Source of the DNA: Oscillospiraceae bacterium
GTDB lineage: Bacteria > Bacillota > Clostridia > Oscillospirales > Ruminococcaceae
Reading direction: 5' to 3'
NCBI GenBank assembly: GCA_017435565.1
Contig: JAFSEU010000012.1
Coordinates: 38,155 to 102,154 of the forward strand
DNA: 64,000 bases
Under the pieces are notes generated by a model, which saw only the letters and a list, made by a program, of their open reading frames with translations, did no database searches and was not told where the DNA came from. A program made the position numbers and the translations under genes. This document shows positions 1,343-36,489 of the stretch, in pieces (position 1 is the first letter of the stretch; the number at the start of each line of letters is the position of its first letter).

Positions 1343-1603
1343 ATGACGGATAAGGAACTGAGAAAACTAAAAAAGCCTGAGCTTTTGGAGATTCTGTTTT
1401 ATCTTCAAAAGGAAGTGGAAGCGCTTAAGGCTGAAAATGACAAGCTGAGCCAGAGGCTTGACAATGCCGCAAAAATCGGCTTGACCGATGATGATATCAA
1501 CAGAATCACGGCGGCTTTTAAAACAACTATGGGCGATACATTAAAGGTCAAGGTTGTCCGCAACGCTGATAAACCCAAGGAGCAAGGCGAAGATGGAACA
1601 TGA
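1343..1603 (+). CDS. Small coiled-coil protein, first gene of pilus operon
   Basis: An 86-residue charged soluble protein. Residues ~5-45 (for example LLEILFYLQKEVEALKAENDKL, shown here in part) form a heptad-like amphipathic helix with regular Leu/Ile spacing, so a coiled coil is likely. The tail (residues ~47-86) is basic and then acidic. GAGGT lies 8-9 nt before the ATG. It overlaps the signal peptidase start by 11 bp, which implies translational coupling. I do not recognise a named family. Its position suggests an accessory role in secretion or expression of the adhesin locus; that is inference only. Confidence 0.75.
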   Translation: MTDKELRKLKKPELLEILFYLQKEVEALKAENDKLSQRLDNAAKIGLTDDDINRITAAFKTTMGDTLKVKVVRNADKPKEQGEDGT

Positions 1604-2180
1604 GACCAGGCGTGATTTGCCCACTGCCGAGCAGCTTGATTCGGCACTGAAAAAGATAAGATACAGAAAAAAGTTTGTAAAAACAATGTTTGATACGGTA
1701 GGTTCGCTTCTCGTTGTTGCGGCAATTGCGGTATTGGTTTCGATGCTGTTTCTGCCTGTTTTGAGAGTAACGGGAACGAGTATGACCCCGACCATGCAGA
1801 ATGACGAGCTTGTAATATGCAGCAAACGAAGCAATTTTGAATGCGGAGACATAATTGCCTTCTATTACAACAACAAAATTCTTCTCAAGCGTGTCATTGG
1901 TGTTGCGGGCGACTGGATAGACATTAAGGAAGACGGAACCGTATATGTAAACGGTGAAGAGCTTATCGAACCTTATGTTGAAAGCAAGGCACTCGGCGAG
2001 TGTGACATTGAATTTCCGTATCAGGTGCCCGATAACAGAATTTTTGTTATGGGTGACCACAGAGAAACCTCAATCGACAGCCGTTCGACTACCGTCGGAT
2101 GCATTGCGGATGAATACATAATCGGCAAGGTTATTTTCAGACTTTGGCCGTGGGAAAGCATAGGAATTATCAAAACTTAG
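1593..2180 (+). CDS. lepB: Signal peptidase I, pilus-locus linked
   Basis: Type I signal peptidase (S26), which cleaves Sec signal peptides at the outer membrane face. The protein is 195 aa from the ATG at 1593, chosen because AAGGAG lies 10 nt upstream; a longer in-frame TTG at 1554 has no such site. One transmembrane helix spans residues ~36-55. Catalytic Ser63 is in GTSMTPT and the general-base Lys99 in LLKRVIGVAGD; the C-terminal GDHRETSIDSRS box is intact. It lies directly upstream of the giant adhesin and pilin. Some streptococcal pilus islands carry a signal-peptidase-like chaperone that has lost catalysis; here the Ser/Lys dyad is kept, so it is probably an active, dedicated processing enzyme. 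Confidence 0.93.
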   Translation: MEHETRRDLPTAEQLDSALKKIRYRKKFVKTMFDTVGSLLVVAAIAVLVSMLFLPVLRVTGTSMTPTMQNDELVICSKRSNFECGDIIAFYYNNKILLKRVIGVAGDWIDIKEDGTVYVNGEELIEPYVESKALGECDIEFPYQVPDNRIFVMGDHRETSIDSRSTTVGCIADEYIIGKVIFRLWPWESIGIIKT

Positions 2181-2246: not shown

Positions 2247-5200
2247 GTGAAAGAAGTACGCGGTGTAATTGAAAACTATATTTTGAACCACGACAGGAAC
2301 AAGAGGCTCTTGGCGTTGTTTTTGGCGCTTGCAATTCTTGTTTCTTTTGCTGTGCCCGCAAGCCTGATTCAGCCTGCCAACAGTATGACTGCCAACAGCG
2401 ACGGCGGTGCTACTCTGCTTAGTGACGACACAGACAGGCCGACACCAACTGTTTCGGAAACAATAACTGCTCCGAACGCAAGCGGAAAGCCTTTTACAAG
2501 TGCCTGTACATATATTCCGCTGAAGTCTGAGAGCATTGAAGGCTATATCTCAACAGTTACGGTAGTTTACAGTGAGCCTTCCGATGATGCTGAACCTATA
2601 TATGATGAGATAACAAATGAGATTATCGGATATACATATCCTCCCGTGGATACCGACGGAGATGGAATAGCTGACAGTATTTCTATTCCGGCAGGTGCCG
2701 ATGAAAGCACTGAATTTGAGTTGAAAATCACTTACAAGCTTCCGCCTTCTTATACTGCGAACAGTCTTAGCACAAACGATCCTTGTATGTACTATATTCT
2801 TCCTGAGAACTTTACTGTTCTGGAAGACTTGTATGGCAGCTTGGTATATGTACTTGATGAAGAGTACAACAGAGACTTGCCTGCAGCATATTTTTCTGTT
2901 GATGACGATACCGGTCTTGTTGTAATTCAGTTTACAGATGAATATATTCAATATCTCAAGGACAACGGTACAACCGCTACAGGTACGCTTGTTATCAGCG
3001 GTTCAATGGGACGTGCCGATACTGCTGACGGCGACAGTAGTATTGAACTCGGCGGCTTTACAATTACATCTGAATTTGAGGATAAACCCAACAGCGTTAC
3101 GAAATCTCAGGGTACGGTAGCTCCCAACGCAAACGGCGGTGCAGATGTTACATGGTCTGTAACTGTATATGATGGAGGCTACGGCTTTACGGGCTGGTCG
3201 GTTAAGGACGCTAATTTCGTTGGCGCTTCTGTTATTATGAATCCCGAGGGTCAGTTCGGAACCTGGAACGGTGATACATATACATTTACAAGTGAGCCCG
3301 GTGTTTCCAGCGTTACATTTACATATACCAAGACATTGAGCGTTGCTGAAATTGAAGCTCTTTATGATGCAAATAATCTTACCGTAACCAACCGTGTTGA
3401 CATTACAAATCCTGATGGCCTTACAGATAGTGCTGAAAGCTCAGCTTCTCTTGAAAGACCTTCGGTTGAAAAGGTCGGTACTGCCGACTATGAAACGGGT
3501 TCGTACGGAAACGTAATCAACTGGGAAATCACAGTTACAAATCCTTACGGCGGTCCGCTTAACGAATATGTTGTATCCGATACTTATCTTTCTCAGCAGT
3601 CAGCTACACTTGTTGTAAAGGATGCTCAGGGTAATGTATTGACAAGCGGTACCGATTACACTTATAACAGTGGAAATGACCTTACTTTGACAACTAATAA
3701 GTCTGAGGTTATTATCTCTTATCAGACACAGGGTTGGGGCGGCAATACTTATACAAACAATGCTGTTTTAAAAGATGGCAGCACTCAGATCTCCAACGAC
3801 AGTGAAACTGTCACTTATGAAAATGCGACACATCTGGGCAAGCAGGGTGTTTATGATCCCGAAACAAATACAATTGTATGGTTTGTTACAGCTGAATCGC
3901 ATATAGGCTTTTTGGACGGATATAAAATATATGACCGTGGTGTATTCGGTCCGGGCTTTGCCATTACATCTTTAGAACAGATTGATATTATTTCTGTTGA
4001 CGGAATGAACGGAACTACTGTTTATTCTGACCTTACGGCAGTCGAAAACAGTGACGGCAGTATTACTTATAAAGATTCCAACGGAACTGTATACGGCACT
4101 GTTTCGTTTGTTGCAGATGATACATCAAACAGCGTTGTTCAGATTGTAAGTGCCGACAGCACTAATAAGGTTGGTATCACAAAGGTAGAATTCTCATTCT
4201 CTACACCTGTAGTAGAAGGACAAACGGAATATTCCAACACTGTAGAACCTGAAAGCGGACAAGGCGACACAGCCAAGGTAACCCCTTCGTGTCAGTATAA
4301 TATCGACAAGTCGGGTTCATACAATGCCGCAAACGGAACTATTGAATGGACAATATCTGTCAAGAATAATACTGCTCTTGACACAGCTTCGCTTAACGAC
4401 GTTACACTTACCGATGCTGCGCTTGTAGGTATGAGCGCTTCTGATCTGGCTCTTTCATGGGCTATGGATACAAGCGGTAATTATGACTTTACATTGTCAT
4501 CAAGTGGCAATGTTGTTACAATAACCGATGCAAACGGAAATGCAGTTGCAACTCTGACGATTGACAGTGCTGCAGGTACAATCACTTTCAGCAGTGTCAC
4601 AGCAGGCTTTAACGATATTGGCTTGAAATATACAAAGACTGTCAGCCAAGAACTTATCAAGCAGGCTGCAAGCCAGACTACCACTGTCAGCAATACGCTT
4701 TCAGCTGAGGTTCCCGGAGATAACCCGACTGATGTCAGCGAGACAGTAACTGTTACGAATCCTTATTCAATCACCAAAACAGGTTCGTATGATGCTTCCA
4801 CAGGCAATATCATCTGGACTGTAGAGGTTCAGAATACTTCCGGCACGCTTAGCGATATCGAGCTTACCGATGACGCGTTCGGCAATCTTGCTTCGGGTAC
4901 CGGTATTGAGATTTCTCAGGCTCATGGATATTACAATGTGTGGAATGTCACAGCACAAGGCTCTGACAACAGCTTTACCTTCACAAATAACGGTACCTCA
5001 TATGGTACAATGGCGCTTTCCGACGGTAAAATTACTTTTACCGACAGTGGCGACAATGGTCTTCAGTATGTAAAATTTACATATCAGACAAAGGCAACTG
5101 CCGGCAACAACGAGAGCGAAACAAATACAATCAGCTCCAATAAGCTTCCCGATGTTACAAGTGACCCTGTAACTGTTACAAATCCTTATACCATGAGCAA

Positions 5201-8200
5201 GAGTGCCGTGGGCGAATATAACCCCGAAACAGGTCTGGTAACATGGTCGGTAGTTGTAAAGGATACAAGTTGGAATTCGTTGGACGGCGTTGTTTTGGCT
5301 GACACGCAATTCAATAATCTTGTATCTGTCTGGGGTGATTATGCATATTTTTACTATTCTTGGGGTGAGTCTGTAAGCCTTAGTTCGAAGACGCAGGATA
5401 ACGTTATTACAATATACAAATCTCAGAATTGTTCTTATAATGGAAGTTGGGGCACTTATGATGTTCCTTACGCAACTCTTACATTCGCTGACGGAAAAGT
5501 CGCAATAGATGTAATTGATGCCAAAGCGTTGGGATATGGTGTTGATACTGATTTGGATGAAGTTAAGTTCTCCTATCAGACAAAGGTTACACAAGAAGAT
5601 ATCGCTAATGGTTATGTAACCAACACAATCGGCACGCACGGAACGGGCGTCGGACCTTCCGAAGGCTCAAGCGCAACACATCAGATTACAAACCGTGAGG
5701 TTTTATTTGATAAATATTCAACAACAAATGACGTTGAAACACACGGCGACGGTGAAGCTACTTATACCCCCGCATGGACGATCAATATCCGCAAGGACGA
5801 CGGATATTCCTCCGATGAGCCGATTCTGGTTGACGTACTTTCAGCCGATAACGGCGGCAAGCATTATATAACAGCTGCACAGCTCAGTGCTATCAAGGTT
5901 TCTGCTAAGCAATATGAAGCTGATTCAAGTTATACTTTGCTTGAAAGCGGCTACACGATAGTGGGAACAGGTGAGGTTACCGATGATAACGGAACCGTTC
6001 TCGGATACAGCGGATTTACCGTAACGTTCAATGATAGTGTTGATACAGCAAATTACCGTTATTTGCAGATTACTTATAATACCAGCGCAAATACATCAGG
6101 CGTTGTAGGGCAGGGAAGCGGAACAACTGCTACCTTTACAAACAGCGCGACATTTGATTCAGACAAATCCGACGGAGATAACTTCACTTACACTGAAATT
6201 CCTGAGGATTATGTTGAAACAATCAGCCTTAATGTCAATAAGACTTGGTCTGACGGTGGTAGTACAGCTTTAAGAACTGACGTTCAGTTTAAGTTGTTGC
6301 AGAAAATCGGAAGCAACGGCGAATGGACTTATTATGACAGTGATGATGAAGGCGATGAAGCTGATATCTTCACCATTTCATCAAACGGTTCTGACACATG
6401 GACGTACACAATCAACAATCTGCCTAAGACCACACCTTATAGTGAATACGGTCAGGAGAATATATACTACAAGGTTGAAGAAATTACAGAAATCAGTGGT
6501 TATAAAACCACCTACGTCGGTAATTATGATAATGGCACTAACTCCAACGGCGCTGTAATTCAGATTATCAATACTCTCGTATCCGTTGAGGTTGAAAAGA
6601 AATGGGTAAATAACAACCCTGACGGAACTCTTAATCCTGTCAGCGTTACCTTGCAGTACAGTGCTGATAACGGCTCGACATGGAATGACTATACAAACGG
6701 CACGATTGAACTTTCCGGCAGTAATAACTGGACATATAAGTGGACCGCGCTTGATCCCGACTATATTTACAGAGTCAACGAGCTTGCTGTTGACGGCTAT
6801 ACAACTACATACAGTGCTACGAGCGTTGACGGCGTAAATAATCAGAAAATCACAATTACAAATACGTCGAACAATATTACCGTAAACAAGAACTGGGTTG
6901 ACGTTGATGGATACAGACCCGCAAGCGGAACAGTAACCGTTGGTCTTTATAAGATAGTCGGCGATAGCGAAGAGCTTGTCGGCGAGCTCAAGCCTCTTGA
7001 CGGTAGCGACTATCAGACCCTTACCTGGTATGGGCTTGAATCGGGCGCTGAATATTTTGTAGAAGAAATCGGAGCAGACGGCTACGTTGTAACTTACAAG
7101 AACGCAAGCGGTCAGGAAACACAGAACGTCAAATCAGGCGGAACAATCAACATAACAAACACGCTTGTTTCGGTTTATGTTGAAAAGTCATGGTCGGGAT
7201 ATCAAAGCGGCACAACTCCTCCCGATGTTGAAGTTAAGCTTCAATACAAGGCAAAGGATGCCGAAAATATTGAAGCAAACTGGAATGATTATACCGTAGA
7301 CGGCACTGTTTGCACAGCAACACTTTCTTATGCCAATAGCAGCCTTAAAGCGGCATGGCACAACCTTAACCCCGATTATGTGTACAGAGTTGTTGAAGTA
7401 AATACGCTTAGCGGTTATACCGTTTCATACAGCGAAGACTATATCGACGGCGTAACAGACCAGTATTTCAACATTTACAATACGTCAAATAATATAAGCG
7501 TTTATAAGCTTTGGTCGGATGACCAGACAAACCGACCTACAAATGTCGAAGTCGGACTCTATAAGATAGTTGACGGCGAAGAGGAGTTGGTTTCGACTCA
7601 AATACTTACCGGTACATATGGTCAGACTCTTACATGGTACGGTCTTGAACCGAATTATCAGTATATTGTGCGTGAAGCTGATATTGAGGGATATGTAACA
7701 ACATACAAGAACAGTAGCGGCACTGCAACGCAGAACGCTACAATCGGCGACACAATTACAATAACAAATACCAAGAATAACATCAAAATCAGCAAGGTCT
7801 GGAAGGATCTTAACGGCAACACCATTACCCCTGATATCGACAGTATCAAGCTTGATGTTTATCAGTCGCAAAGCGGCGTTCCTGCAATTTCTGACAGCGT
7901 TACTGACAGAACCACTTATACGGGCGAAGATGGTAGCGTGACAGGTGCGTTTGCACTTCCTGATTTGCAGGCGGGTGATAAACTGACGCTGAGAATCAAT
8001 TCCAATCAGGGATATATACAGTATTGCAATGGATGTATTGGTGCAAATGATGCCGCCGGAAACTGGGTTCAACTTGAATGGAATGGAACAATTAACAGCT
8101 ATTATTTGGATCTGACATTCGATGTCACACAGGATCTTACCAATGTTGTTTTCCAGACGTGGTATAACGGCTCCTCTCAGAACGGCTCACCTGATTATAT

Positions 8201-11200
8201 CGATTCTGTTGATTATTCAATTCAGAGTTGGACGCTGTACGATACAATTACCGTTACTCCCGATGATAACGGAAATTGGACATATAACCTTACAAATCTG
8301 CCGACGGGCACTGCGCCGGGCGAATATATTTACAAGTTCGTTGAGCAGACTGTTGACGGTTATTACGCAACCTACACCAACAATGACGGCGTAACTCCCA
8401 CGAGCAATTCGCAGGTTACGATTACCAATAACGAAGCTGAGACAGTCGATAAGGTTGCTTATGATAAGGACGGAAACGCTATTGTAAGCGGCTCACTTAT
8501 CAAGCCCAACAGCTTAGAAAAAGCAACGATTGACGGTGTTGAGTGTTATGTAATTCATTATCAAATTACACCTTGCAAGTCCGGTTTGAAAATAATTGAT
8601 ACTTTGCCGACAGGTTGGTCATTCTGTACGAGTGCTCCGTATAATCCTGTAGGTTATTGGGATCAGTGGAACATTTATTCATTGAGTTCAGGTACAGGCG
8701 AAAATAATTACCAGTATGATAACACAAGCACACCGCATACTGTAACATTCTACAATGCTAAATGGTCACATGTTGACTATTACATCAGTATTCCGGTTGA
8801 AACTCTTGATAATAAAATCAAGGAAAGCAATAGCGTTCTGGTTGAGAACACCGCTGCTCTGGAAAGCGAAAACTCTCAGCCGACGACGAACAGAATTGTT
8901 GTTTCAAATTCAACATCGGGCAATAACGATGACAGTCTGATCGATAAGACAGCGAGTATCAATAAGGCAGGAGACCTCAAGTATACCGTTGTTTTCAATC
9001 CTGAAGGTAAAAACCTTGCTAACGGTGATGAAGTACATCTTACCGACGATTTCAACCTTCTTGATTGTGTCAATGCAAACGGCGTCGCGTTCTTAGATCA
9101 GGCCGATGTCAAGCTTTCTTCGTTTACTGTTGAAAGAGCAGACAGTATCACTTATGACAGCAACGGCAATCTGGTTTTCGACGAGAATGGCATTCTGGAT
9201 TATGAAGGCACGGTGATTAATGCATACTACACGCCTACATACGAGCCGACGGAGACTACGGTTACTGTTTTAGAGTTTGCAACCTCTACATACTATGAAT
9301 ATAATATGTGGGAGACAAGTGATTTTGAAATTGGTGACCAAATTACTTTTGTAGTTAGTGCTACTGACAAGGCTAACTCAAGTTGGGGCGAAACCGGTCC
9401 ATATATTATGGCAGACGAATGGAATAATGGTTATTATACCAAGTTAGTGGATTTTACTGAAAAAGCATCCTATAATTCTGAAACCAAGCAATGGACCTAT
9501 ACGTATACTGTTGATAAGGATTATGCAAAATTAGCTATTGGCAGTTACAATTATAATAGCGGTGAATACAATTGGGCAAATAGTTATGTTACTGATGTTT
9601 CAGCTACAACATCTACGACCACTCAGCTCTCAACAGTAACACTTGATATAACTGTTCCTGATGAGACTCCTATTGTAATTACCTATTACTACACAATCAG
9701 CCCTCTTCCAAACGGAAGTACTGTTACAGCGAGCAACAGCATTTCGTTTGACACAGGCAACTACAACGGAAGCGACACGAACGATGCGACAGAGTTCCTT
9801 GTAAACAAAACTTCATCTACTATCAGCGTAGCTACTGCACCGACCATTAAAAAGGTCAGCATCAGCGACTACAGTGTTAAGGTTGACGCTGAATTTAAAA
9901 TGGCATATTGGGATGGAGTTAACAATTGTTGGGTATTCGCAGTGGCTCAGGAAAAAGGCGAAGGCAACATTGTGAAGCCCGTGTGGACAACGACTGACGG
10001 AGCGACAGCCACCGCAACAGATAATACCATTCCGAGTAATGCGCATTCCTTCGAGCTTGGTACGATTGATATCAGCCTTGAAGACGGAAAGCTTTATAAG
10101 CTTATTGAAACCAGCATGCCCTTCGGTTATCACGGCTATAATCTTGCTGCTGATTTTAATGCAACTTATAATTACACCGGAAGTGAAACCGATTATGACG
10201 GAAACATGGAAGGCAAACCGAATTATGCTGCTTATATCACAGCAGTAAAAGATTCAATGGCTGCAGCGGCGAGAACGGAAGCAATATTCGAAGATTTGCT
10301 TCAGGGATATCTTGCAGGTTACGCAAATCCGTATTCAGCATTCTTCACGGAATTTGAGCCTGTATATTATTTCGCTTATGAAGATGCAGACTATGCTACG
10401 CCAAGTGGCTTTGCCGAACAAGTTACAACTGTTGCGACTACGGGCGAGCTTATTCTCAACAACAGCGAAATGATTGAAATCACAATCGACAAAACCTGGG
10501 ATCAAACTGCTATTGATGAAGTTGGCGTTGAAGTAACAGATGTTAAGTCAATTGTTAAGCTTTACTGGTCAACGGTAAAGAAATCGACTGGCTTCCCTGA
10601 GCAGCTTTACGAAGTTAACGACACCTATTTCAGCAGCCTTAAGGATGTTGAAGGCTTCCAGAATCCGCAGGTGGTCGGAACAGCTGATGATCCTAATACC
10701 GAGGAGATTGAGTCTGTAACTGCCAAGTGGGGACTTCTTCCCAGCGGTTATATGGGACAACCGATTTACTATTACGTTAAGGAAATCGGCTACATGGTAG
10801 GCACCAAGACATATTATTATCTGGAAAGCGCAGATGAATATGTATACGCAAGGTTGGATGATCAGGGCAATATAATTCCTCTTGCAGAAGACGGAACAGA
10901 TCTTAGCGGTACTGATTATGTAACTGTTGGAATCAAGCCGATTTATACAGGCAACGGCACAAATAACAATCCCAATTGGGTTGACACTTCAAAGAACAAG
11001 CAGGTTGAAATTGATATTCAGAACACTGCGGGTCTTAAGATCGAAAAGCTCTGGAGAACTTCCGATAACAAGGATTTCTTTGACCCTGAGGTCAATATGA
11101 AACCTCCGCTTGATTCGGTTCCGATTATTCTTTACGGAACGCTTGCTTCTACGGGAATCGAACAGATGATTGGTTCATTCACCGTTGGAACAGCAAATGA

Positions 11201-14200
11201 CTGGCATCTTATAATCGATGAAAAGGAATATAACTTAAGCGCATACAAATCGTTCCGCGTTGAAGAAAATGTTCCTGCTGACCAGCAGCATCTGATTTAC
11301 GGATATGCAGTCAGCTACGGTTACAACGTAAATGGTACTTCGGGTACGATTACTGTTACCAACAAGGACAATACCCCGACTGAAATTGACGTAACAGTCA
11401 ATAAGGTCTGGTCCGATTCGGCTGACCACACCAACGACAGCGTTACATTGCAGCTCTATCAGACAACAAGGAAGGAAGCTTTAACTTACGAAGAGGGTGA
11501 CACTCTGATAATAGAAGAGATTACTCTCAGCCAAACCAATAACTGGACGTATACAACGACTGAAAAGCTTCCCTATAAGGATTCTGTTTCGGGACTGCGC
11601 TATTACTACTACGTTGTTGAAAAGTCATATAATGTCGAAAATGGTGAAACGTATAAGACTAATTACACCAGAAGTGACATTGCAAATCGCCAGACGCTTA
11701 CTGTTACAAACTACGTTCCCGGAAGTATCAATATTGAGAAAAACTGGATTGATACAAACAACGCTACGATACCGAGCAATAGCCTGCTTCTTCCTGATGG
11801 TATTCAGGTAGATATCTACCGCAGACCAGACGAGGTGATGTATGGCGAAGGCGGCGCAACGTTGGATCCCGGTATTCAGGTTTACGCCGATGGCGACTCA
11901 ATAACAAATGGCTTTTGGACGGGCGCCGATCCTTATCCGAATGTTTTGGAAGGAAAGCTACCAAGCACAACTGATGAACCTGCAAATGTAGTGAACAGTG
12001 GCGTAAGTAGCCAGTTGATTGATACTGTGTTTACTACATATAACGATAAAGATTTGAGTGACGCTGATATTAAATTTTCAACAGGTTATAATTTCTATAC
12101 AGTAATTGCAGGTACAAATGATATCAACTATGGTCACTCGATAGATGAAATTGTCGAAGATTATACCACGCTGATACTCGACAAGGTAAAGGCTGTTGAT
12201 TCGAATGTCGTAGTACTTGTCGGTGGTATCCCTCATGAAGATTTCTGGGATGAAGCAGAATCTGAAACGACTACTGGTTTTTCTTATACTGGAGCCTTAC
12301 AGTATGTAGTAGACAATTATCCTACTGATACCTCAAATCAAACTCAGGTAGAAGCCTATGAAAAAACGGTCAACAAGAGAATAGATGATGCAAACGCAAG
12401 AATCAAAGCTCTTGTTGAAAGCTATCAAGGCTTGAAAATCTACTATGTGGATATTCCCGCCGTTTTGGATGCTCTTGTAGAAGAGGGCAAAGAACCGTTG
12501 CACGACGGATGTCATCCTTCTCAGGCTGGCTACAATGCTATCGCTCTGGCTTTCTATGATGCCATCAACACCTACTACGGCGTTGGCACAATGGAAACCC
12601 CTAAGAATATGGAGTCGGGATATCCCGAAGACATAACCGATACCACAAAGTATGAATACGTCGGCACATATACAATCGATAAGCCTGACACCGAGGATGG
12701 CACTTGGACGACAAGCATCGAGCTGCCCACAATGAATGACAGCAACGTAAACTACGTTTACTACGTTGTTGAAAAGACAACAGGTTATACAGTTGCTTAT
12801 AATTCAAACGGTCAGGTTATCGGCGACAATGACGGCGATACAATTTCCGTAACAAACACAGTAGATACGGAAAAAACCTCGATTACAGTCGAAAAACTCT
12901 GGCGCGATAATGACAGCGGCAACAGACCTTCAAGCGTAGAGCTGCAGCTGCAGCGAAAGCTTGAAAACGCAAGCGGCTGGACAGATATCGGCGAGAAATT
13001 CACACTTACCTCTGAAGGTGGGTGGACAACAACAATTACCGACCTTGATGTTACCAATAATAACGGCGTAAAATACCACTATCAGGTGGTTGAAACGGTT
13101 CCTGACGGCTACATAGTAACCTACGGCGATACAAACGGTGATGCGGCCGCAGTTGCAGGAACAACAATCACGGTCACAAATACAAAGACTTTTGACCTCA
13201 CAGTCAAGAAAGTTTGGTCCGACCCCGACCATGTTCTTAACGAAGGCGTTCAGGTTGAAATTTACAGAGATATTGTAAATAACACGGGTGGCAACGGACT
13301 TAACATTATGCCGCTTCAGCTTGCACTTGTTACCCCTGCGGATGGTAATCTCGCTATCACAACGGGCAAGACGGCAACAGTTGAAGTAAACAAGGCAAAC
13401 ACTACGGTTTCGTTTAGTGAAGACCTTGCAACAGCGGTGGTGAATGATAAAACAATTACCGTAACTGCAAGGGATACAACAGGCAACACCGTAATGACGA
13501 TTACCGACGCAGACGGACAGACGGTGAAGGTTAACATTACAGTTACCGACAAGCCCACGTTGACCCTTGCGTTATCACAAAGCTCGATTCTTGCCGGTGA
13601 AACCTCTACGATTTCTGCAGAGCTTTCAGACGGAACAGCAATTGAAAGCATATCTTATGAAATCACAGGCACAGCCGCAACGCTCAGCGGAAACACTTTA
13701 ACAGGTGTAAACGCAGGTACTGTTACTGTCAAGGCTACAGCTACTGTTGGTGATGATACCTACGAAGCAACTACCACACTTACGGTAAATCTTACCGACA
13801 GCTTCACGCTTACGGCAACAGAAAATGCCGACGGCACATTTACAGTAACGCCCAGCCCGTCATACGGCACGTTTGTTTACACATCAAGTAATGATTCAAT
13901 CGCAACGGTTGATAAGAATACAGGTGTTGTAACAATCCACGGCGCAGGCACTGTAACAATCACAGCTACACGAAACGGCGAAGATACAGCTTCGGTTGAT
14001 ATTAAAGTTCCTCTGACAGTATCACCTGAATCTGTTACAATGTCAACAAGTGGTTCGACTTCGACGCAGGAGCTTACCGTAAACAGCACCGATGTTACTT
14101 ACGAATCAAGTGACGAAACGGTCGCAACAGTTAGTGACGACGGCGTGATTACAGCAAAAGGTGATGGCAGTGCTACAATTACTGTATATTACCATAAGGG

Positions 14201-15800
14201 TCAGGCTGATGAGCAGTCTAAGACAGTTAATGTTACTGTTTCATCAGGACCTCTTGCGACGGTAGGTTCAAGTGGATATACGTTGAATCTTGATTCAAGT
14301 AAGACTGTTGAGAGCGTATCTGTTACATTTGGTGATATGGGAAGCGATTTGTCTGCTAATATGTACCAGGGAGGTACTGAAAAGGCCTATGCTTGGTTGG
14401 ATTATGATAATGGTACTTTGTCATATACAACATGGGGAAATACATTCCATTATTCGCAATCAGTAAGTGGAAATACTCTGTTGTTTGAAAGAGGAAGTAA
14501 CGAAGCTATTGCGTTGGACAAATTACAAATATCACTTCAAAACGGAAGTTCATCTTGGGAAATCGAAACCATTGTCGTCACCTACAGCGATGGTACAGTA
14601 GTTACCCACTCAGCGGCTGGCTCTACGTCATCAGGCGGCGGAGGTTCAGGCGGCGAGGTAGTTGAAGAAACCTTCCCCATTACCTTAGGCACTGTTAACA
14701 AGGGCGATACAGTTAAAGTTGTTTTAACAGGTCCTGCCTCCAAATACGTCAACGGTGCATTGTCAGGAAATGTTAATGGAACCTGGACAAATCAGTCCTG
14801 GGAGTCTACATTTGACAGCAGTGGTAATCTCGTGCTTGAGATCGTCAGCGAATATGACTTTACTGATGCACAGCTTCAGAAGTGGTGGTGTTCCAGTGAC
14901 GGAAGTACTTCAGATTTGATTGATGAAGTTCAGGCAGTCAGCTATGAGATAATACCTGCTGGTAATTCGGGTAACACAGGTGGCGGAGATGAACCTGTTG
15001 GAGATACGGTTACAGGAAATGATTTGAATGTCGGCACAAATCCGAGTGTTGCTATCGATTCAAGTAAAACTGTAACCACACTTACGCTTACATTATCTGA
15101 CGATACAGTGAATGGCAGCTATTCGAATTTTGCTGTATATATTGGAAATTATCTTGCTGGAGCAAACATCGCCTCGCAAAACGGTACTATTACAGTAAGT
15201 CAAGAATGGGGTGGATGCACATATACAGTGACTGGAAATACCGTTACGTTGACTCTTAATAAATCAGCGGATGCAATTATCTTTGCTAATTACGGAGGTA
15301 GTAATGTAGTATCATCCTACACCATCACTTACGCATCAACCGCAGCCGCGTCATACTCCCTTCTCAATCGCGTATCATACGCACCGCCTTCAAGGGCATA
15401 TGCGTTGCTTGCAGATGCAACCTACCCCGAGCTGGTAGATACAGTTCTGATAACTTCGACTGAGGATTGGACGTACATTTACGAAAACCTCCCCGTATAT
15501 GATTCAAATGGTAATCCGTATTACTACTGGATAGTCGAGGTTGGCGCAAACGGCTTCACGCCGAGCTACAGCTTCTCAGACGGTGACGATGTCGCAATTG
15601 ACGCAGACTACTGCATAAACGCAGAAAATGCAGGCAACGCGACCGCAACCGTTAAGAATACACCAAATGACACTTCAACCTCCCTGCCTTCAACCGGCGG
15701 TCAGGGAACGCAAAGGTACTATGTAACAGGCATAGCAATTATGCTCTGTGCATTAGCCGGAATCTATGGATTTAAGCGGAGGCAGAGAAGCCAAAGCTAA
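2247..15800 (+). CDS. Giant LPSTG-anchored Cna_B-repeat adhesin with embedded SGNH hydrolase
   Basis: A 4517-residue cell-wall protein. The GTG start follows AAAGGGGG by 7 nt. Residues ~19-40 are a Lys/Arg plus hydrophobic signal segment. Residues ~280-1320 hold about six related beta domains of ~120-160 aa, with repeated starts like KSGSYNAANGTIEW and KTGSYDASTGNIIW. About 12 Cna_B-type domains follow; their first strands (pattern V-x-K-x-W) lie near nt 6230, 6585, 6880, 7166, 7494, 7785, 10480, 11035, 11392, 11728, 12881 and 13198. Three of these Cna_B folds carry insertions: a beta module (~7915-8230), an SGNH/GDSL hydrolase (~11840-12620; Ser3218, Asn3291, Asp3420, His3423), and Ig-like plus carbohydrate-binding-like modules (~13275-15400). 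The C-terminus is LPSTG (4480-4484), a hydrophobic helix and a KRRQR tail, the sortase substrate pattern. Likely a pilus tip or stalk adhesin attached by the adjacent sortase. The ligand is unknown. Confidence 0.92.
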   Translation: MKEVRGVIENYILNHDRNKRLLALFLALAILVSFAVPASLIQPANSMTANSDGGATLLSDDTDRPTPTVSETITAPNASGKPFTSACTYIPLKSESIEGYISTVTVVYSEPSDDAEPIYDEITNEIIGYTYPPVDTDGDGIADSISIPAGADESTEFELKITYKLPPSYTANSLSTNDPCMYYILPENFTVLEDLYGSLVYVLDEEYNRDLPAAYFSVDDDTGLVVIQFTDEYIQYLKDNGTTATGTLVISGSMGRADTADGDSSIELGGFTITSEFEDKPNSVTKSQGTVAPNANGGADVTWSVTVYDGGYGFTGWSVKDANFVGASVIMNPEGQFGTWNGDTYTFTSEPGVSSVTFTYTKTLSVAEIEALYDANNLTVTNRVDITNPDGLTDSAESSASLERPSVEKVGTADYETGSYGNVINWEITVTNPYGGPLNEYVVSDTYLSQQSATLVVKDAQGNVLTSGTDYTYNSGNDLTLTTNKSEVIISYQTQGWGGNTYTNNAVLKDGSTQISNDSETVTYENATHLGKQGVYDPETNTIVWFVTAESHIGFLDGYKIYDRGVFGPGFAITSLEQIDIISVDGMNGTTVYSDLTAVENSDGSITYKDSNGTVYGTVSFVADDTSNSVVQIVSADSTNKVGITKVEFSFSTPVVEGQTEYSNTVEPESGQGDTAKVTPSCQYNIDKSGSYNAANGTIEWTISVKNNTALDTASLNDVTLTDAALVGMSASDLALSWAMDTSGNYDFTLSSSGNVVTITDANGNAVATLTIDSAAGTITFSSVTAGFNDIGLKYTKTVSQELIKQAASQTTTVSNTLSAEVPGDNPTDVSETVTVTNPYSITKTGSYDASTGNIIWTVEVQNTSGTLSDIELTDDAFGNLASGTGIEISQAHGYYNVWNVTAQGSDNSFTFTNNGTSYGTMALSDGKITFTDSGDNGLQYVKFTYQTKATAGNNESETNTISSNKLPDVTSDPVTVTNPYTMSKSAVGEYNPETGLVTWSVVVKDTSWNSLDGVVLADTQFNNLVSVWGDYAYFYYSWGESVSLSSKTQDNVITIYKSQNCSYNGSWGTYDVPYATLTFADGKVAIDVIDAKALGYGVDTDLDEVKFSYQTKVTQEDIANGYVTNTIGTHGTGVGPSEGSSATHQITNREVLFDKYSTTNDVETHGDGEATYTPAWTINIRKDDGYSSDEPILVDVLSADNGGKHYITAAQLSAIKVSAKQYEADSSYTLLESGYTIVGTGEVTDDNGTVLGYSGFTVTFNDSVDTANYRYLQITYNTSANTSGVVGQGSGTTATFTNSATFDSDKSDGDNFTYTEIPEDYVETISLNVNKTWSDGGSTALRTDVQFKLLQKIGSNGEWTYYDSDDEGDEADIFTISSNGSDTWTYTINNLPKTTPYSEYGQENIYYKVEEITEISGYKTTYVGNYDNGTNSNGAVIQIINTLVSVEVEKKWVNNNPDGTLNPVSVTLQYSADNGSTWNDYTNGTIELSGSNNWTYKWTALDPDYIYRVNELAVDGYTTTYSATSVDGVNNQKITITNTSNNITVNKNWVDVDGYRPASGTVTVGLYKIVGDSEELVGELKPLDGSDYQTLTWYGLESGAEYFVEEIGADGYVVTYKNASGQETQNVKSGGTINITNTLVSVYVEKSWSGYQSGTTPPDVEVKLQYKAKDAENIEANWNDYTVDGTVCTATLSYANSSLKAAWHNLNPDYVYRVVEVNTLSGYTVSYSEDYIDGVTDQYFNIYNTSNNISVYKLWSDDQTNRPTNVEVGLYKIVDGEEELVSTQILTGTYGQTLTWYGLEPNYQYIVREADIEGYVTTYKNSSGTATQNATIGDTITITNTKNNIKISKVWKDLNGNTITPDIDSIKLDVYQSQSGVPAISDSVTDRTTYTGEDGSVTGAFALPDLQAGDKLTLRINSNQGYIQYCNGCIGANDAAGNWVQLEWNGTINSYYLDLTFDVTQDLTNVVFQTWYNGSSQNGSPDYIDSVDYSIQSWTLYDTITVTPDDNGNWTYNLTNLPTGTAPGEYIYKFVEQTVDGYYATYTNNDGVTPTSNSQVTITNNEAETVDKVAYDKDGNAIVSGSLIKPNSLEKATIDGVECYVIHYQITPCKSGLKIIDTLPTGWSFCTSAPYNPVGYWDQWNIYSLSSGTGENNYQYDNTSTPHTVTFYNAKWSHVDYYISIPVETLDNKIKESNSVLVENTAALESENSQPTTNRIVVSNSTSGNNDDSLIDKTASINKAGDLKYTVVFNPEGKNLANGDEVHLTDDFNLLDCVNANGVAFLDQADVKLSSFTVERADSITYDSNGNLVFDENGILDYEGTVINAYYTPTYEPTETTVTVLEFATSTYYEYNMWETSDFEIGDQITFVVSATDKANSSWGETGPYIMADEWNNGYYTKLVDFTEKASYNSETKQWTYTYTVDKDYAKLAIGSYNYNSGEYNWANSYVTDVSATTSTTTQLSTVTLDITVPDETPIVITYYYTISPLPNGSTVTASNSISFDTGNYNGSDTNDATEFLVNKTSSTISVATAPTIKKVSISDYSVKVDAEFKMAYWDGVNNCWVFAVAQEKGEGNIVKPVWTTTDGATATATDNTIPSNAHSFELGTIDISLEDGKLYKLIETSMPFGYHGYNLAADFNATYNYTGSETDYDGNMEGKPNYAAYITAVKDSMAAAARTEAIFEDLLQGYLAGYANPYSAFFTEFEPVYYFAYEDADYATPSGFAEQVTTVATTGELILNNSEMIEITIDKTWDQTAIDEVGVEVTDVKSIVKLYWSTVKKSTGFPEQLYEVNDTYFSSLKDVEGFQNPQVVGTADDPNTEEIESVTAKWGLLPSGYMGQPIYYYVKEIGYMVGTKTYYYLESADEYVYARLDDQGNIIPLAEDGTDLSGTDYVTVGIKPIYTGNGTNNNPNWVDTSKNKQVEIDIQNTAGLKIEKLWRTSDNKDFFDPEVNMKPPLDSVPIILYGTLASTGIEQMIGSFTVGTANDWHLIIDEKEYNLSAYKSFRVEENVPADQQHLIYGYAVSYGYNVNGTSGTITVTNKDNTPTEIDVTVNKVWSDSADHTNDSVTLQLYQTTRKEALTYEEGDTLIIEEITLSQTNNWTYTTTEKLPYKDSVSGLRYYYYVVEKSYNVENGETYKTNYTRSDIANRQTLTVTNYVPGSINIEKNWIDTNNATIPSNSLLLPDGIQVDIYRRPDEVMYGEGGATLDPGIQVYADGDSITNGFWTGADPYPNVLEGKLPSTTDEPANVVNSGVSSQLIDTVFTTYNDKDLSDADIKFSTGYNFYTVIAGTNDINYGHSIDEIVEDYTTLILDKVKAVDSNVVVLVGGIPHEDFWDEAESETTTGFSYTGALQYVVDNYPTDTSNQTQVEAYEKTVNKRIDDANARIKALVESYQGLKIYYVDIPAVLDALVEEGKEPLHDGCHPSQAGYNAIALAFYDAINTYYGVGTMETPKNMESGYPEDITDTTKYEYVGTYTIDKPDTEDGTWTTSIELPTMNDSNVNYVYYVVEKTTGYTVAYNSNGQVIGDNDGDTISVTNTVDTEKTSITVEKLWRDNDSGNRPSSVELQLQRKLENASGWTDIGEKFTLTSEGGWTTTITDLDVTNNNGVKYHYQVVETVPDGYIVTYGDTNGDAAAVAGTTITVTNTKTFDLTVKKVWSDPDHVLNEGVQVEIYRDIVNNTGGNGLNIMPLQLALVTPADGNLAITTGKTATVEVNKANTTVSFSEDLATAVVNDKTITVTARDTTGNTVMTITDADGQTVKVNITVTDKPTLTLALSQSSILAGETSTISAELSDGTAIESISYEITGTAATLSGNTLTGVNAGTVTVKATATVGDDTYEATTTLTVNLTDSFTLTATENADGTFTVTPSPSYGTFVYTSSNDSIATVDKNTGVVTIHGAGTVTITATRNGEDTASVDIKVPLTVSPESVTMSTSGSTSTQELTVNSTDVTYESSDETVATVSDDGVITAKGDGSATITVYYHKGQADEQSKTVNVTVSSGPLATVGSSGYTLNLDSSKTVESVSVTFGDMGSDLSANMYQGGTEKAYAWLDYDNGTLSYTTWGNTFHYSQSVSGNTLLFERGSNEAIALDKLQISLQNGSSSWEIETIVVTYSDGTVVTHSAAGSTSSGGGGSGGEVVEETFPITLGTVNKGDTVKVVLTGPASKYVNGALSGNVNGTWTNQSWESTFDSSGNLVLEIVSEYDFTDAQLQKWWCSSDGSTSDLIDEVQAVSYEIIPAGNSGNTGGGDEPVGDTVTGNDLNVGTNPSVAIDSSKTVTTLTLTLSDDTVNGSYSNFAVYIGNYLAGANIASQNGTITVSQEWGGCTYTVTGNTVTLTLNKSADAIIFANYGGSNVVSSYTITYASTAAASYSLLNRVSYAPPSRAYALLADATYPELVDTVLITSTEDWTYIYENLPVYDSNGNPYYYWIVEVGANGFTPSYSFSDGDDVAIDADYCINAENAGNATATVKNTPNDTSTSLPSTGGQGTQRYYVTGIAIMLCALAGIYGFKRRQRSQS
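11840..12620 (+). other. SGNH/GDSL hydrolase domain inserted inside a Cna_B domain
   Basis: This is a domain within the giant adhesin, not a separate gene. Block I is YADGDSITN (Ser3218), block II is a Gly in NSGVSSQ, block III is AGTNDIN (Asn3291), and block V is DGCHPS (Asp3420, His3423). All four SGNH landmarks are present in order with normal spacing, so the domain is probably catalytic, for example an esterase or deacetylase. It interrupts the Cna_B domain that starts at nt ~11728 after VQVDIYRRP; the fold resumes at YVGTYTIDKP (nt ~12657). Confidence 0.85.
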
Positions 15801-15900: not shown

Positions 15901-17409
15901 ATGAAAAACACAACAATGAGAAAACTCGCAGGTATCGCAGCAATCGTAACACTCGCTTCCTGCATGATGGCACCCATGGGCATGACTGCTTTTGCAGTAG
16001 CCGCTGACACAAGTGATATTACAATTTCCGGAGCTGTCACAGGCTCAGAGTATGTAGGTTATAAGTTGATGACCTTGACTCAGAACGGCACTTCTTTTTC
16101 TTACACGATCAACTCAAAATATTCGGAAATTTTGCAGGCAGCTGCAGACGTTGATTCTGATGACGCTGTACTTGAATATCTTGAAAGTGACGATGTTGAT
16201 ATTAGAGCATTTGCAGATGCAGTTTATATGGGAATTCTTGCTGACGGTACAATTGAATCTGATGAAGTGCTTTCAGCAACAGAAGCAACAACTGTAGAAC
16301 AGGGTTATTACCTTGTTGTAGAAACAAAGACAGGTAATTCCGATCCTGATGATACATATTCACTCGCAATGCTTGATACCGCTGGTGATGATAATGTAAC
16401 TATCACAACAAAGGAAAGCACACCTACTCTCTTTAAAAAGATTAAGGATAAAAACGATACTGAAAATACAACATCGGATTGGCAGGATAGTGCTGACCAT
16501 GATATCGGAGATTCGATTGATTTCCAGTTGACTGGTACAGTTTCCAGCAAGTACGATGATTATAAAGAATACTACTATGCGTTCCACGATACACTCTCTC
16601 CTGGTCTGACATTTAATAATGACGTTCAGGTTTATGTTGGTGGAGTAGAAATCACAGAAGGCTTCGAAGTTGTTACCTCTACAACAGATGGCTGCACATT
16701 TGAAGTAGTGTTTGAAGATCTTAAGGATATTGATTCTGTAACAGCTACAAGCAAGATTGTAGTTGAATATTCTGCTACATTGAATGAAAATGCTGAAATC
16801 GGTTCAACAGGCAACCCCAACGTTGCTGACCTTGAGTACAACGTAAATCCCTACTTTACCGATGCTAATAACGATGGTAAAGATGATACAACAGGTGAAG
16901 AAGAGGAAACAGGTTACACTCCCGAAGATAAGGTAATTGCTTTTACTTATAAGGTAGAAGTAAACAAAACAGATGGTACTAACGCCTTGGATGGTGCTAC
17001 ATTTACGCTTGAAAAGAATGTCAATGGTACTTGGACAGCACTTGAACTTGTTGAAGCTGATAACGGTTCGACATTCACATTTACAGGACTTGATGACGGC
17101 GATTACAGATTGACAGAAACCGAAGCTCCTCAGAATTACAATAAACTGACAGATCCGATTGAATTTACTGTATCTGCTGAACATGATGTAGAAGAAGCAA
17201 ATCCTCAGCTCACAGCTCTTACTGGCGATACATTTACAGGTAATGTAACTACTGGTATATTGTCTACAGAAATTGTGAACGAATCCGGTTCTAAGCTCCC
17301 CTCAACCGGTGGTATCGGTACAACTCTCTTCTACGTAATCGGTGGCACAATGGCAGCAGGCGCCGGCGTTTACCTCATCTCCAAGAAGAGAATGAACAAG
17401 GAAGACTAA
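15901..17409 (+). CDS. Major pilin, isopeptide-forming LPSTG fimbrial protein
   Basis: A 502-aa secreted pilin subunit. The signal peptide ends near AFAVAA (residues ~30-35). After an N-terminal domain, a middle beta domain (~170-345) opens with LFKKIKDKND, the usual place of an isopeptide lysine, and ends around EYNVNPYF. A C-terminal SpaA/Cna_B-type domain (~347-440) starts VEVNKTDG and has the E-box-like YRLTETEAP. The cell-wall sorting signal is LPSTG (466-470), a hydrophobic helix and KKRMNKED. Family knowledge: such subunits are polymerised by class C sortases and stabilised by Lys-Asn bonds. I do not see a clear YPK pilin motif, so the linking lysine is not assigned. AAAGGAG lies before the ATG. 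The next gene is the sortase. Confidence 0.9.
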   Translation: MKNTTMRKLAGIAAIVTLASCMMAPMGMTAFAVAADTSDITISGAVTGSEYVGYKLMTLTQNGTSFSYTINSKYSEILQAAADVDSDDAVLEYLESDDVDIRAFADAVYMGILADGTIESDEVLSATEATTVEQGYYLVVETKTGNSDPDDTYSLAMLDTAGDDNVTITTKESTPTLFKKIKDKNDTENTTSDWQDSADHDIGDSIDFQLTGTVSSKYDDYKEYYYAFHDTLSPGLTFNNDVQVYVGGVEITEGFEVVTSTTDGCTFEVVFEDLKDIDSVTATSKIVVEYSATLNENAEIGSTGNPNVADLEYNVNPYFTDANNDGKDDTTGEEEETGYTPEDKVIAFTYKVEVNKTDGTNALDGATFTLEKNVNGTWTALELVEADNGSTFTFTGLDDGDYRLTETEAPQNYNKLTDPIEFTVSAEHDVEEANPQLTALTGDTFTGNVTTGILSTEIVNESGSKLPSTGGIGTTLFYVIGGTMAAGAGVYLISKKRMNKED

Positions 17410-17540: not shown

Positions 17541-18416
17541 TTGAAAAAAAAATCAGGCGTAATTTCAACAATAATCTTTACATTGATTTTCATTATCGGC
17601 CTTGCTATAATGCTTTATCCCATTGTCAGCGACTGGTGGAACTCAAAGGTACAAAGCCGTGCGGTAGCAAGCTATGACCAAACGGTTGCCGAAATGGACG
17701 AAACCGAATATGAGCTGATTCTGCAAAAGGCGCGCGATTATAACGCAAAAGTCGCAAAGCTTAACGCTCCGCTTGCCGAGGCAGACTCACTCCCCGAATA
17801 CTATGAAATTCTTGATGTTTCGGGAACGGGTATTATGGGATATATCACCATCCCGTTGATTAAGGTTGAGATTCCGATATATCACGGAACGAGCGAATCG
17901 GTTCTCAACATTGCCGCCGGACATCTTCAAGGCACGGCATTTCCAATCGGAGGAGAAAACACACACGCTGTAATTTCAGCGCACAGAGGTCTTCCTACTT
18001 CAAAACTGTTCAGCGACCTTGACAAGCTTGTTGTCGGAGATACGTTTACAGTAACGATTCTCAATGAGGTTTATACCTACGAGGTTGAGGATATATTCAT
18101 TGTTGAGCCTCACGAGGTTGAAAAGCTTGCGGTAATTCCTAATGGCGATTATGTCACTCTGATGACTTGTACACCCTACGGCGTAAACAGTCACCGTTTA
18201 CTTCTGCGCTCAAAACGAATTGAAACCGTTTATCAGAGCACGGTCAGAGTTGTGTCGGATGCCGTTCAGGTTGACCCGCTGCTGGTTGTTCCGCTTCTGT
18301 CAACTCCGCTGCTCATCGGGTTGATTATTTTCTGGATTTTCAGCGGCAGGAAGAAAAAATCTCTGCCTTACAGAAATCCGCTTTATACTTTGCCGCCAAG
18401 AAAATATGATGAATAA
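17541..18416 (+). CDS. Class C sortase (pilus polymerase)
   Basis: A 291-aa transpeptidase that joins pilin subunits and cleaves LPxTG motifs outside the membrane. It has an N-terminal helix (residues ~8-27) and a C-terminal helix (~250-272), the two-anchor topology of class C. His148 is in SAHRG, Cys210 in TLMTCTPYG and Arg219 in NSHRLLLRS, giving the full catalytic set. The canonical DPW/DPF lid before the catalytic domain is not evident; the corresponding stretch reads NAPLAEADSLPEYY. The start is TTG, chosen because AGGAGGG lies 6 nt upstream. It closes the operon with the two LPSTG substrates and is followed by a strong terminator. Confidence 0.92.
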   Translation: MKKKSGVISTIIFTLIFIIGLAIMLYPIVSDWWNSKVQSRAVASYDQTVAEMDETEYELILQKARDYNAKVAKLNAPLAEADSLPEYYEILDVSGTGIMGYITIPLIKVEIPIYHGTSESVLNIAAGHLQGTAFPIGGENTHAVISAHRGLPTSKLFSDLDKLVVGDTFTVTILNEVYTYEVEDIFIVEPHEVEKLAVIPNGDYVTLMTCTPYGVNSHRLLLRSKRIETVYQSTVRVVSDAVQVDPLLVVPLLSTPLLIGLIIFWIFSGRKKKSLPYRNPLYTLPPRKYDE

Positions 18417-18423
18417 ACAAACA

Positions 18424-18459
18424 AAAGCCCTTTCGGATATGAAAGGGCTTTGCGTTTTT
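18424..18459. terminator. Bidirectional terminator after sortase / sigma factor
   Basis: AAAGCCCTTTC pairs with GAAAGGGCTTT around a 6-nt loop, followed by GCGTTTTT. It sits between convergent genes. Confidence 0.85.
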
Positions 18460-18465
18460 CAGGGT

Positions 18466-20457
18466 TTAATCAATTGTATAATCATACAGATATCCGTTTG
18501 AAAGTAGAACATTTCCGCAGTCGGTAATTCTAACAATCTTGTCTGCAACATTGTTCAAAGCGTCACACGGATAGAACGCTGTGTCAACTTCTTCTGTGTC
18601 CCATCTTGATGCAATTGCAGCTGTGTAATATCCTGTGTCGGTCTTTACAGTCATCAAATTGTTGGACATCCATACATTTTCAAGCGTACCTTCAGGACAA
18701 TCCTCTTCAAAAACAACTGTTCCGTTTTCGGTAAGTGCAACAATCTTGTTGTCATCGGTAAGACCCAATGCTGTAATGTAATAGAAATGAGTGCAGTTAT
18801 CGAAAACATCAACAAAAACATAATCTTCGCTGTTTTCGATGATATCTTCTTCTGCAGCGTTGTTTACTTCGTGAATCTGTCCCTTGTCAGAAAGCGCAAA
18901 GTATGTATCAACCATATCCACAACCTCAATACCAAAATGCTCAAGATTTGCAAATGTATCAAGCGCATTATGATAGAAGCCCAAGCCGCCGTCAACAGGA
19001 TTAGGGTAGTTTGTTTCGGTATATGCGTGTGCCGCATGCCAGAATCCGCTTGAATCCATAGCATAAAGCTCAAAGCCATTTTTGCTGATTTTTATAGATT
19101 CAAGGTCCTCAACATCCTCATATAAGGTTCCTTCGCCTTCAAGGATTACTGTGGGTTCGTCGTAGTTCCATGTTTCAGTTTCGCTAATCACCTTTGCATA
19201 AACTTTTCTTCCGTCAATAGCTACAAAACGCTCCTGATTATAGCTGAAAGCAATATCATCAAATTTTGTAATTGACGTGTTTTCACCGATGGTTTTAATA
19301 TCATATGCCAATCTGGAGTAGGGATAGTAATAATAAATGTTGCCCTCATTATCAAGAAGAATAAAGCTGTTGTCAACCGAGGTGACTTCGTTGTAAACAT
19401 CAACAATTTTACCCGAAATCAAATCGGCGCCTTCGCCGTCTTCTGTGTGCTGGGCAAGTTTGATAACCTCAAGCCCTTCAAATTCGGGGTACTCGCTTTC
19501 TTCGTTATCGGAAGAGTTGTTGTCATCAGAGTCAGATTCTTTGCTTGACTCGTCATCTTCCGATTCGCTGCTTTCTTGGATTGATGAATCCTCTTTATTA
19601 TATTCGGATTCTTCATTGTCTTTGTCATCATCATCGTCTGAAGATTTGCTGTCATCTTCATCGTCCTCGTCAATTTCGACAGAGATTGTCTTGTCGTCAT
19701 CATCGTCATTGCCGCGGCGTCTGTCGCTGTCATCGTCAGATGAGATAATCACCCCTGCTGTAATGGCGCCGCCTACAATAACCAGCGCTGAAACGCCTGC
19801 AATAATTTTTCCTTTTAATGTGCTAAGCATTGTTTTTCCTCCTGTTTTTACAGCTTTTGCTGTATTGTTAATTGTTTTTTGACTGCACGTTCCTGCTTTT
19901 GCGGCGGCAAATTCAGCAAAATTCATTTTCGGAAGTGTAATTTTTTGTTCCTCCGTTTTGAATATCAGTCCGATAATACCGATTGGCATAACAGAGTGCA
20001 ATTTGTCGTTATTCTCTTTCTCGTAAATAAGCACAGCCTCCCGTAATTTTTTTCGTGAGCTGTTCAGTCGTGACAAGACGGTTCCTTCGGGACAGTCCAT
20101 TATGTTGCTGATTTCTGCTACGCTCATATTATTGTAATAATAAAGAATTACCGTTTGCCTTTGCGATAATGTCAGATTGTTGTCGATGATGTCCATAATG
20201 ATTTGTCTTTTTGCATCATTTTCCACGTAGTCTGCCGGTATCAGCCCATCATCGGGTATGCTTTCGGCAAATTCTTCATCAAGCTGCTGCGAATTTGATA
20301 TTTGTGCAAAAAAAGATTTGCAGTCGTTTATCGCAATTCTGTTTATCCAAGCAAGAAAATTTTCAGGATATGCAAGCGAACCGAGCTTTTCAAAAGCCTT
20401 GAGATATGTGCTTTGCAGAATATCACGGGCGGCCTGATCATCCTGTGTGAGCTTCAA
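18466..20457 (-). CDS. Membrane-tethered ECF sigma factor with extracellular sensor domain; N-terminus frameshifted
   Basis: The protein joins a sigma factor to a membrane sensor. Residues 1-55 match region 2 (QAARDILQSTYLKAF, FLAWINRIAIND) and ~85-145 match region 4 (LTLSQRQTVILYYYNNMSVAEIS, shown in part by LSQRQTVILYY). A transmembrane helix lies at ~215-238, then an Asp/Glu/Ser-rich linker (~240-335), then a ~325-residue extracellular domain with repeated short beta motifs (VVDMVDTYFALSDKGQIHEV type), like a propeller. Only a TTG start is available in this frame. A better start, ATG at 20565-20567 with AGGGAG upstream, encodes MNKEELVFLIKKSQSGDR, the expected beginning, but in another frame. 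See the 20458-20567 entry. No separate anti-sigma gene is adjacent, so the sensor domain may hold the sigma at the membrane. Confidence 0.8.
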   Translation of the reverse strand: MKLTQDDQAARDILQSTYLKAFEKLGSLAYPENFLAWINRIAINDCKSFFAQISNSQQLDEEFAESIPDDGLIPADYVENDAKRQIIMDIIDNNLTLSQRQTVILYYYNNMSVAEISNIMDCPEGTVLSRLNSSRKKLREAVLIYEKENNDKLHSVMPIGIIGLIFKTEEQKITLPKMNFAEFAAAKAGTCSQKTINNTAKAVKTGGKTMLSTLKGKIIAGVSALVIVGGAITAGVIISSDDDSDRRRGNDDDDDKTISVEIDEDDEDDSKSSDDDDDKDNEESEYNKEDSSIQESSESEDDESSKESDSDDNNSSDNEESEYPEFEGLEVIKLAQHTEDGEGADLISGKIVDVYNEVTSVDNSFILLDNEGNIYYYYPYSRLAYDIKTIGENTSITKFDDIAFSYNQERFVAIDGRKVYAKVISETETWNYDEPTVILEGEGTLYEDVEDLESIKISKNGFELYAMDSSGFWHAAHAYTETNYPNPVDGGLGFYHNALDTFANLEHFGIEVVDMVDTYFALSDKGQIHEVNNAAEEDIIENSEDYVFVDVFDNCTHFYYITALGLTDDNKIVALTENGTVVFEEDCPEGTLENVWMSNNLMTVKTDTGYYTAAIASRWDTEEVDTAFYPCDALNNVADKIVRITDCGNVLLSNGYLYDYTID

Positions 20458-36483: not shown

Positions 36484-36489
36484 AAAGTT

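Follow-up and report, generated by a model that had tools for sequence, protein, structure and literature searches.

The locus described here raises the question of what a complete hydrolase might do inside a structural domain of a surface protein. It lies in a stretch of 64,000 nucleotides from an Oscillospiraceae bacterium (assembly GCA_017435565.1, contig JAFSEU010000012.1, positions 38,155 to 102,154, forward strand; hereafter the window), in which one gene encodes a giant protein with an LPSTG sorting motif. An earlier note had described a complete SGNH hydrolase within a Cna_B domain of this protein, and that description is borne out by sequence, homologues and predicted fold. The inserted SGNH domain is probably a carbohydrate O-acetyl-esterase that can be exchanged between relatives. 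A predicted Lys-Asn ring would enclose it, and its task would be the deacetylation of hemicellulose at the contact between pilus and plant fibre. The features that carry this reading are as follows.

2247..15800, + strand: giant LPSTG protein, 4517 amino acids, 13.6-kb gene (open reading frame (ORF) and translation; Cna_B, Lipase_GDSL_2 and Big_2 matches)
15684..15698, + strand: LPSTG sorting motif, residues 4480-4484, near the C-terminus (motif in translation)
11715..11825, + strand: interrupted Cna_B, upstream half, with Lys3165 (11739-11741) (weak hidden Markov model (HMM) match, E 0.17)
11859..12587, + strand: SGNH hydrolase cargo (Pfam, predicted fold, conservation)
11898-11900, + strand: SGNH residue Ser3218 (GDSITNG, residues 3216-3222)
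12000-12002, + strand: SGNH residue Gly3252 (block II Gly)
12117-12119, + strand: SGNH residue Asn3291 (GTND, residues 3289-3292)
12504-12506, + strand: SGNH residue Asp3420 (DGCH, residues 3420-3423)
12513-12515, + strand: SGNH residue His3423 (same DGCH)
12648..12875, + strand: interrupted Cna_B, downstream half, with Glu3509 (12771-12773) and Asn3537 (12855-12857) (HMM, E 1.8e-5)

The inserted SGNH domain

SGNH enzymes are recognised by motif blocks I, II, III and V, which contribute Ser in GDS, Gly, Asn in GxND, and Asp and His in DxxH. All five residues are found in the window protein, and the four residue numbers given in the earlier note (Ser3218, Asn3291, Asp3420 and His3423) are exact; the fifth position, Gly3252, is Ala or Ser in six of 13 representative homologues (see below). 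Pfam Lipase_GDSL_2 (PF13472) matches residues 3216-3430 with 55.8 bits (cut-off 32.9, E 1.1e-14), or 62.5 bits if the SGNH domain is scanned alone, and the predicted structure of the insert has the SGNH alpha/beta fold. Fold and motif thus answer, though only indirectly, the earlier call for a prediction in which the catalytic residues come together. A chance motif is ruled out by the Pfam score, the fold and the conservation.

No solved relative was found at E 1e-3 by single-sequence search. A profile of the 13 homologues, the kind of check that had been proposed, finds 45, the top one being the CE3 esterase 2vpt of Clostridium thermocellum (E 3.1e-16), which aligns at positions 50-168 and 204-264. 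The GDS, ND and DGxH blocks of the two proteins line up, whereas 2vpt was crystallised as a separate 215-residue domain and the window SGNH domain is embedded in Cna_B. The same profile also matches the B domain of the collagen adhesin Cna (1d2p; whole-sequence E 2.3e-7, best stretch 293-348, with no single stretch below 0.001 alone).

The interrupted Cna_B domain and its predicted ring

The interrupted Cna_B domain spans 11715-12878. The span first proposed, 11728-12900, located a real interrupted domain, but its end reaches slightly into the next Cna_B. An HMM of 100 positions, built from the giant protein's own seven whole Cna_B domains, fits the downstream half over model positions 29-99, which together with the weaker upstream match agrees with the earlier view that both flanks belong to a single divided Cna_B. 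The insert separates the residues of the isopeptide triad: Lys3165 precedes it, and Glu3509 and Asn3537 follow it. All three are invariant in the 115 rows of the homologue alignment and fit the Cna_B pattern, in which the Lys lies on the first strand and the Asn on the last, with a catalytic Glu.

CnaB-like isopeptide bonds are described as joining adjacent first and last strands (PMC12617251). Because Lys3165 and Asn3537 flank the insert, the enzyme would sit within a closed ring holding the 371 residues between them if the predicted bond forms, and this bond, predicted from the triad, would make the protein a natural counterpart of the engineered SpyRing. In SpyRing, SnoopRing and PilinRing, an enzyme is placed between parts of an isopeptide-forming domain and the bond closes a ring, leading to resilience (PMC4748275); the 2016 SpyRing paper says of enzyme resilience gained by such a route that it is 'not known in nature' (PMC4748275). 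SpyRing is a laboratory construct, whereas the window protein shares its layout and has a predicted bond and possible resilience.

Conservation among homologues

A search with residues 3157-3660 found 672 proteins, and the best 120 were examined. The SGNH-in-Cna_B insert is present in 115 of these, counting the window's own protein. Homologues had been named earlier as the check for a misassembled insert, and misassembly is ruled out because the layout is common to so many of them. Ser, Asn and His are found in all 115 rows and Asp in 114. These rows are redundant; among 13 representatives below 80% identity, with cores mostly 25-52% identical, Ser, Asn and His are each present in 13 and Asp in 12.

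More distant genomes were searched at two levels, with at most five candidates scored per genome. The order-level search (394 genomes, E 1e-8) gave a match in 63 genomes, and the class-level search (391 genomes, E 1e-20) in three. One of the three (G669, of another family) encodes a 2861-residue LPNTG protein in which an SGNH domain is preceded by an apparent Cna_B start with a weak HMM score and followed by the end of a Cna_B (E 5e-4). Other large ORFs with SGNH matches (L042-L048) contain no [L/I/M]PxTG by pattern in the SGNH-bearing ORFs, for which no Cna_B scan was made; the tail of L048 resembles a variant sorting signal by eye. L042 and L043, from another family of the same order (G076), are ORFs of 3345 and 3131 residues, each of which the A1 profile matches twice, at a spacing of about 5 kb.

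Likely exchange of enzyme cores between relatives

When flank and core identity are counted separately on the 115-row alignment, three of the 10 flank clusters contain two different cores, with sockets 92-99% alike and cores 29-39%. The cases are P0002 (the window protein) and P0003, with flanks 93% and cores 30% identical; P0006 and P0030, with 99% and 29%; and P0050 against P0048 and P0063, with 92-95% and 37-39%, the rarer core in this third cluster being borne by three rows. Of the 3096 row pairs whose flank identity is 80% or more, 212 have cores below 50%, although row pairs are not independent. In bins of 100 residues, P0002 and P0003 share 93-100% identity over residues 301-1500 and 1601-2100, against 35% and 21% in the two bins that lie inside the enzyme; identity is also lower, at 47-77%, in part of the last Cna_B cargo (4001-4300).

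The core of P0003 is nearest to that of P0004 (81%) and its flanks are nearest to those of the window protein (93%). Since core and flanks have different nearest relatives, point divergence is rejected for P0003, which is a case of replacement and not of drift. No second copy of socket plus insert was found at E 1e-3 in the window's 33-contig assembly, where the three further profile matches are two free SGNH proteins and the next Cna_B. Cassette switching within the genome, as in a shufflon, is therefore rejected, and the exchange, if real, would be between lineages.

Other loaded Cna_B domains

Two Cna_B domains beside the SGNH-bearing one carry cargo in like manner.

7773..8432, + strand: loaded Cna_B socket A, residues 1843-2062, with Lys1850 and Asn2061 (split HMM match, Lys/Asn positions)
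7872-8246, + strand: socket A cargo, about residues 1876-2000 (weak Cbm74 match, E 0.02)
13188..15674, + strand: loaded Cna_B socket C, residues 3648-4476, with Lys3655, Glu4431 and Asn4471 (HMM and triad positions)
about 13272-15425, + strand: socket C cargo, Big_2 domains and three beta-sandwich modules (Pfam, domain scans)
14655..14969, + strand: CBM80-like carbohydrate-binding module in the socket C cargo, residues 4137-4241

A PDB sequence search with the socket A cargo gave no match under E 0.09. The socket C module matches CBM80 (Pfam Cbm74, PF22579) in both sequence and fold. The CBM80 of Ruminococcus flavefaciens Cel5A (5aot, 5fu2-5fu4) is described as part of a cellulase/mannanase (PMC10992016), whereas the window module is carried by a pilus-operon protein. 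These loaded domains, the split triad and the enzyme exchange are additions to the earlier note.

The pilus operon and the host genome

The giant gene is one of a set of adjacent genes on the same strand.

1554..2180, + strand: signal peptidase I, first pilus operon gene (Pfam Peptidase_S26, 115.4 bits; NCBIfam sigpep_I_bact, 120.8 bits)
15901..17409, + strand: backbone (major) pilin with LPXTG anchor (GramPos_pilinBB, 89.1 bits; RrgB_K2N_iso_D2, 84.9 bits)
17541..18416, + strand: class C (pilus) sortase (NCBIfam class_C_sortase, 263.3 bits, cut-off 160)
18424..18451, both strands: terminator-like hairpin 3' of the sortase gene (12-pair stem, then T-rich tail; consensus match only)

With signal peptidase I upstream of the giant gene and a backbone pilin and class C sortase downstream, the locus is a pilus operon, which strengthens the earlier suggestion of a pilus-like stalk. 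The giant protein has the LPXTG-type anchor and the operon context of ancillary and tip pilins; it is most simply read as one of these, and we infer a position at the tip. A Pfam scan at E 1e-3 found four families in total, among them Cna_B in six stretches, Lipase_GDSL_2 and Big_2; VWA is not among the four, and no thioester domain was found, which is recorded as an absence only. A like operon, with signal peptidase, a 3257-residue giant protein with SGNH, backbone pilin and sortase, is present in the metagenome-assembled genome record L011. The contig title reads Alistipes senegalensis, which is a name from the Bacteroidota, yet the contig carries an LPXTG pilus operon with sortase, and the label or binning is doubtful.

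The genome of the window has 52 dockerin and eight cohesin matches and two dockerin-linked GH10 (xylanase) matches, and the source bacterium probably digests plant fibre. All 52 dockerin sites are on contigs other than that of the window (C8), and the giant protein is thus not a cellulosomal enzyme in the sense of having a dockerin in the same protein. A 1019-residue ORF elsewhere in the genome (G000:C24:32418-34730) combines a dockerin match with two to SGNH (43.7 and 47.2 bits).

Proposed mechanism and alternatives

In the proposed mechanism, the giant protein would be attached by the class C sortase to the tip of a fibre made of backbone pilin. Binding of beta-glucan or xyloglucan would fall to the CBM80-like cargo, and the SGNH cargo would strip O-acetyl groups from nearby hemicellulose. 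The Lys3165-Asn3537 bond would form spontaneously and turn the residues between into a closed loop; because of this loop, force pulling on the stalk would bypass the enzyme, and a denatured enzyme could refold. A change of cargo in a constant socket would alter the choice of substrate and leave the stalk untouched. Such a pilus would likely hold plant fibre and trim it as well. Between the two substrates suggested earlier, the evidence favours hemicellulose as the probable target over mucin: another cargo is CBM80-like, the profile ranks a CE3 esterase first among solved relatives, and the genome is cellulosomal.

Several observations weigh against this reading. The upstream Cna_B half fits the HMM only weakly (model positions 3-20, E 0.17), and P0051, one of the 13 representatives, lacks the catalytic Asp. 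Beyond the window's own genome, no whole socket plus insert is present among the order-level matches listed from the 394 genomes, and single-sequence search for free-standing SGNH relatives gave none at E 1e-3 among 4107 candidates. Variation extends beyond the cargo, since P0002 and P0003 also dip outside the loaded sockets (72-79% over residues 101-300, 56% over 2101-2200 and 65-69% over 2301-2500), and a single contig underlies each of P0003 and P0030, which makes chimeric assembly possible for both. SGNH enzymes hydrolyse many esters, and the fold therefore leaves the substrate unnamed; moreover, we infer catalysis, substrate, bond and tip position alike.

The enzyme could instead be an active esterase on host glycans, such as the O-acetylated sialic acid of mucin, with the pilus as an organ of host attachment. 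While 2vpt tops the profile search, there are SGNH esterases that score as high by Z or higher. Host-glycan esterases do not rank ahead of plant-type ones in the same list (CE3 18.5, Axe2 18.1). Another cargo of the same protein is CBM80-like, and the dockerin, cohesin and GH10 matches point to plant material (no search for sialidases or mucin enzymes was made), and we regard host glycans as an unlikely target. A pseudo-enzyme serving as a lectin-like adhesin, its variation related to binding or phage escape, would suit the strong core variation between relatives, the loss of Asp in P0051 and the description of insertions in such folds as usually isopeptide or adhesion domains (PMC12617251). 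Binding alone needs none of Ser, Asn and His, and their invariance in every row and every representative, across such divergent cores, counts against a pure binding domain, which makes this explanation improbable. More improbable still is an esterase directed at polymers of the cell's own surface, for example O-acetylated peptidoglycan or capsule, with the giant protein anchored in the wall as a processing factor and not placed at a pilus tip. LPSTG allows direct wall anchoring in principle, and the downstream genes include those for a UDP-glucose/GDP-mannose dehydrogenase and a sugar transferase, but the operon has a backbone pilin and a pilus sortase, and a CBM80-like module is among the cargo.

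The reading of an exchangeable hemicellulose esterase can be extended, tentatively and at somewhat less than even odds, to pili of cellulosomal gut bacteria in general. These pili might be a natural SpyRing, with interchangeable enzyme cartridges in isopeptide-locked Cna_B sockets, forming a second, covalent display system beside the cellulosome, and the cartridges might cross lineages by recombination at the socket edges.

Relation to known systems

Cargo domains inside pilin isopeptide domains are known already from Cpa, RrgA and Spy0125. A thioester domain is described as cargo within an isopeptide domain of the Cpa pilin (PMC6194298), and the host domain in Spy0125 is named CnaB-like (PMC12617251). 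In this Streptococcus pyogenes minor pilin (Cpa/Spy0125) the cargo is a thioester domain, whereas that of the window protein is an SGNH hydrolase, differs between close relatives and is accompanied by two further loaded Cna_B domains. Tip pilins of the RrgA and GBS104 type are described as having a VWA domain with a metal-ion-dependent adhesion site at the tip, between inserted arms (PMC5536039), and the CnaA-like domain of RrgA as having a large insertion between the bond residues (PMC12617251). Their cargo is an adhesive VWA and not an enzyme, and the Pfam scan of the giant protein at E 1e-3 found no VWA family.

No report of an enzyme inside a Cna_B pilin was recognised among the titles and abstract starts listed by searches of open-licence literature. 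As far as that search goes, the enzyme cargo, the differing cores in near-identical sockets, the several loaded sockets per protein and the cellulosomal host are apparently new. Sortase pili are known as grips, and a pilus equipped with both a conserved hydrolase and a module that binds fibre would be a working tool. The engineers' design of an enzyme in an isopeptide ring would then prove to have been reached by evolution too, and varied cores in a near-constant socket would offer natural insertion points for engineering. The same variation would give microbiologists a directly testable account of how fibre degraders could retune their surface enzymes.

Other features of the window

A 663-residue ORF at 18466-20457 (- strand) adjoins the pilus operon. 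Regions 2 and 4 of sigma-70 match at its start, region 2 below cut-off; judged by eye, a hydrophobic segment follows, then an acidic low-complexity stretch and an extended C-terminal region. It reads as an extracytoplasmic function (ECF)-like sigma factor fused to a possible surface part, and it might regulate the pilus. Further away are a 745-residue protein with a large beta-propeller domain (PF09826, 383 bits) at 31226-33463 (- strand) and a lysine riboswitch (117 bits) at 36489-36678 (+ strand).
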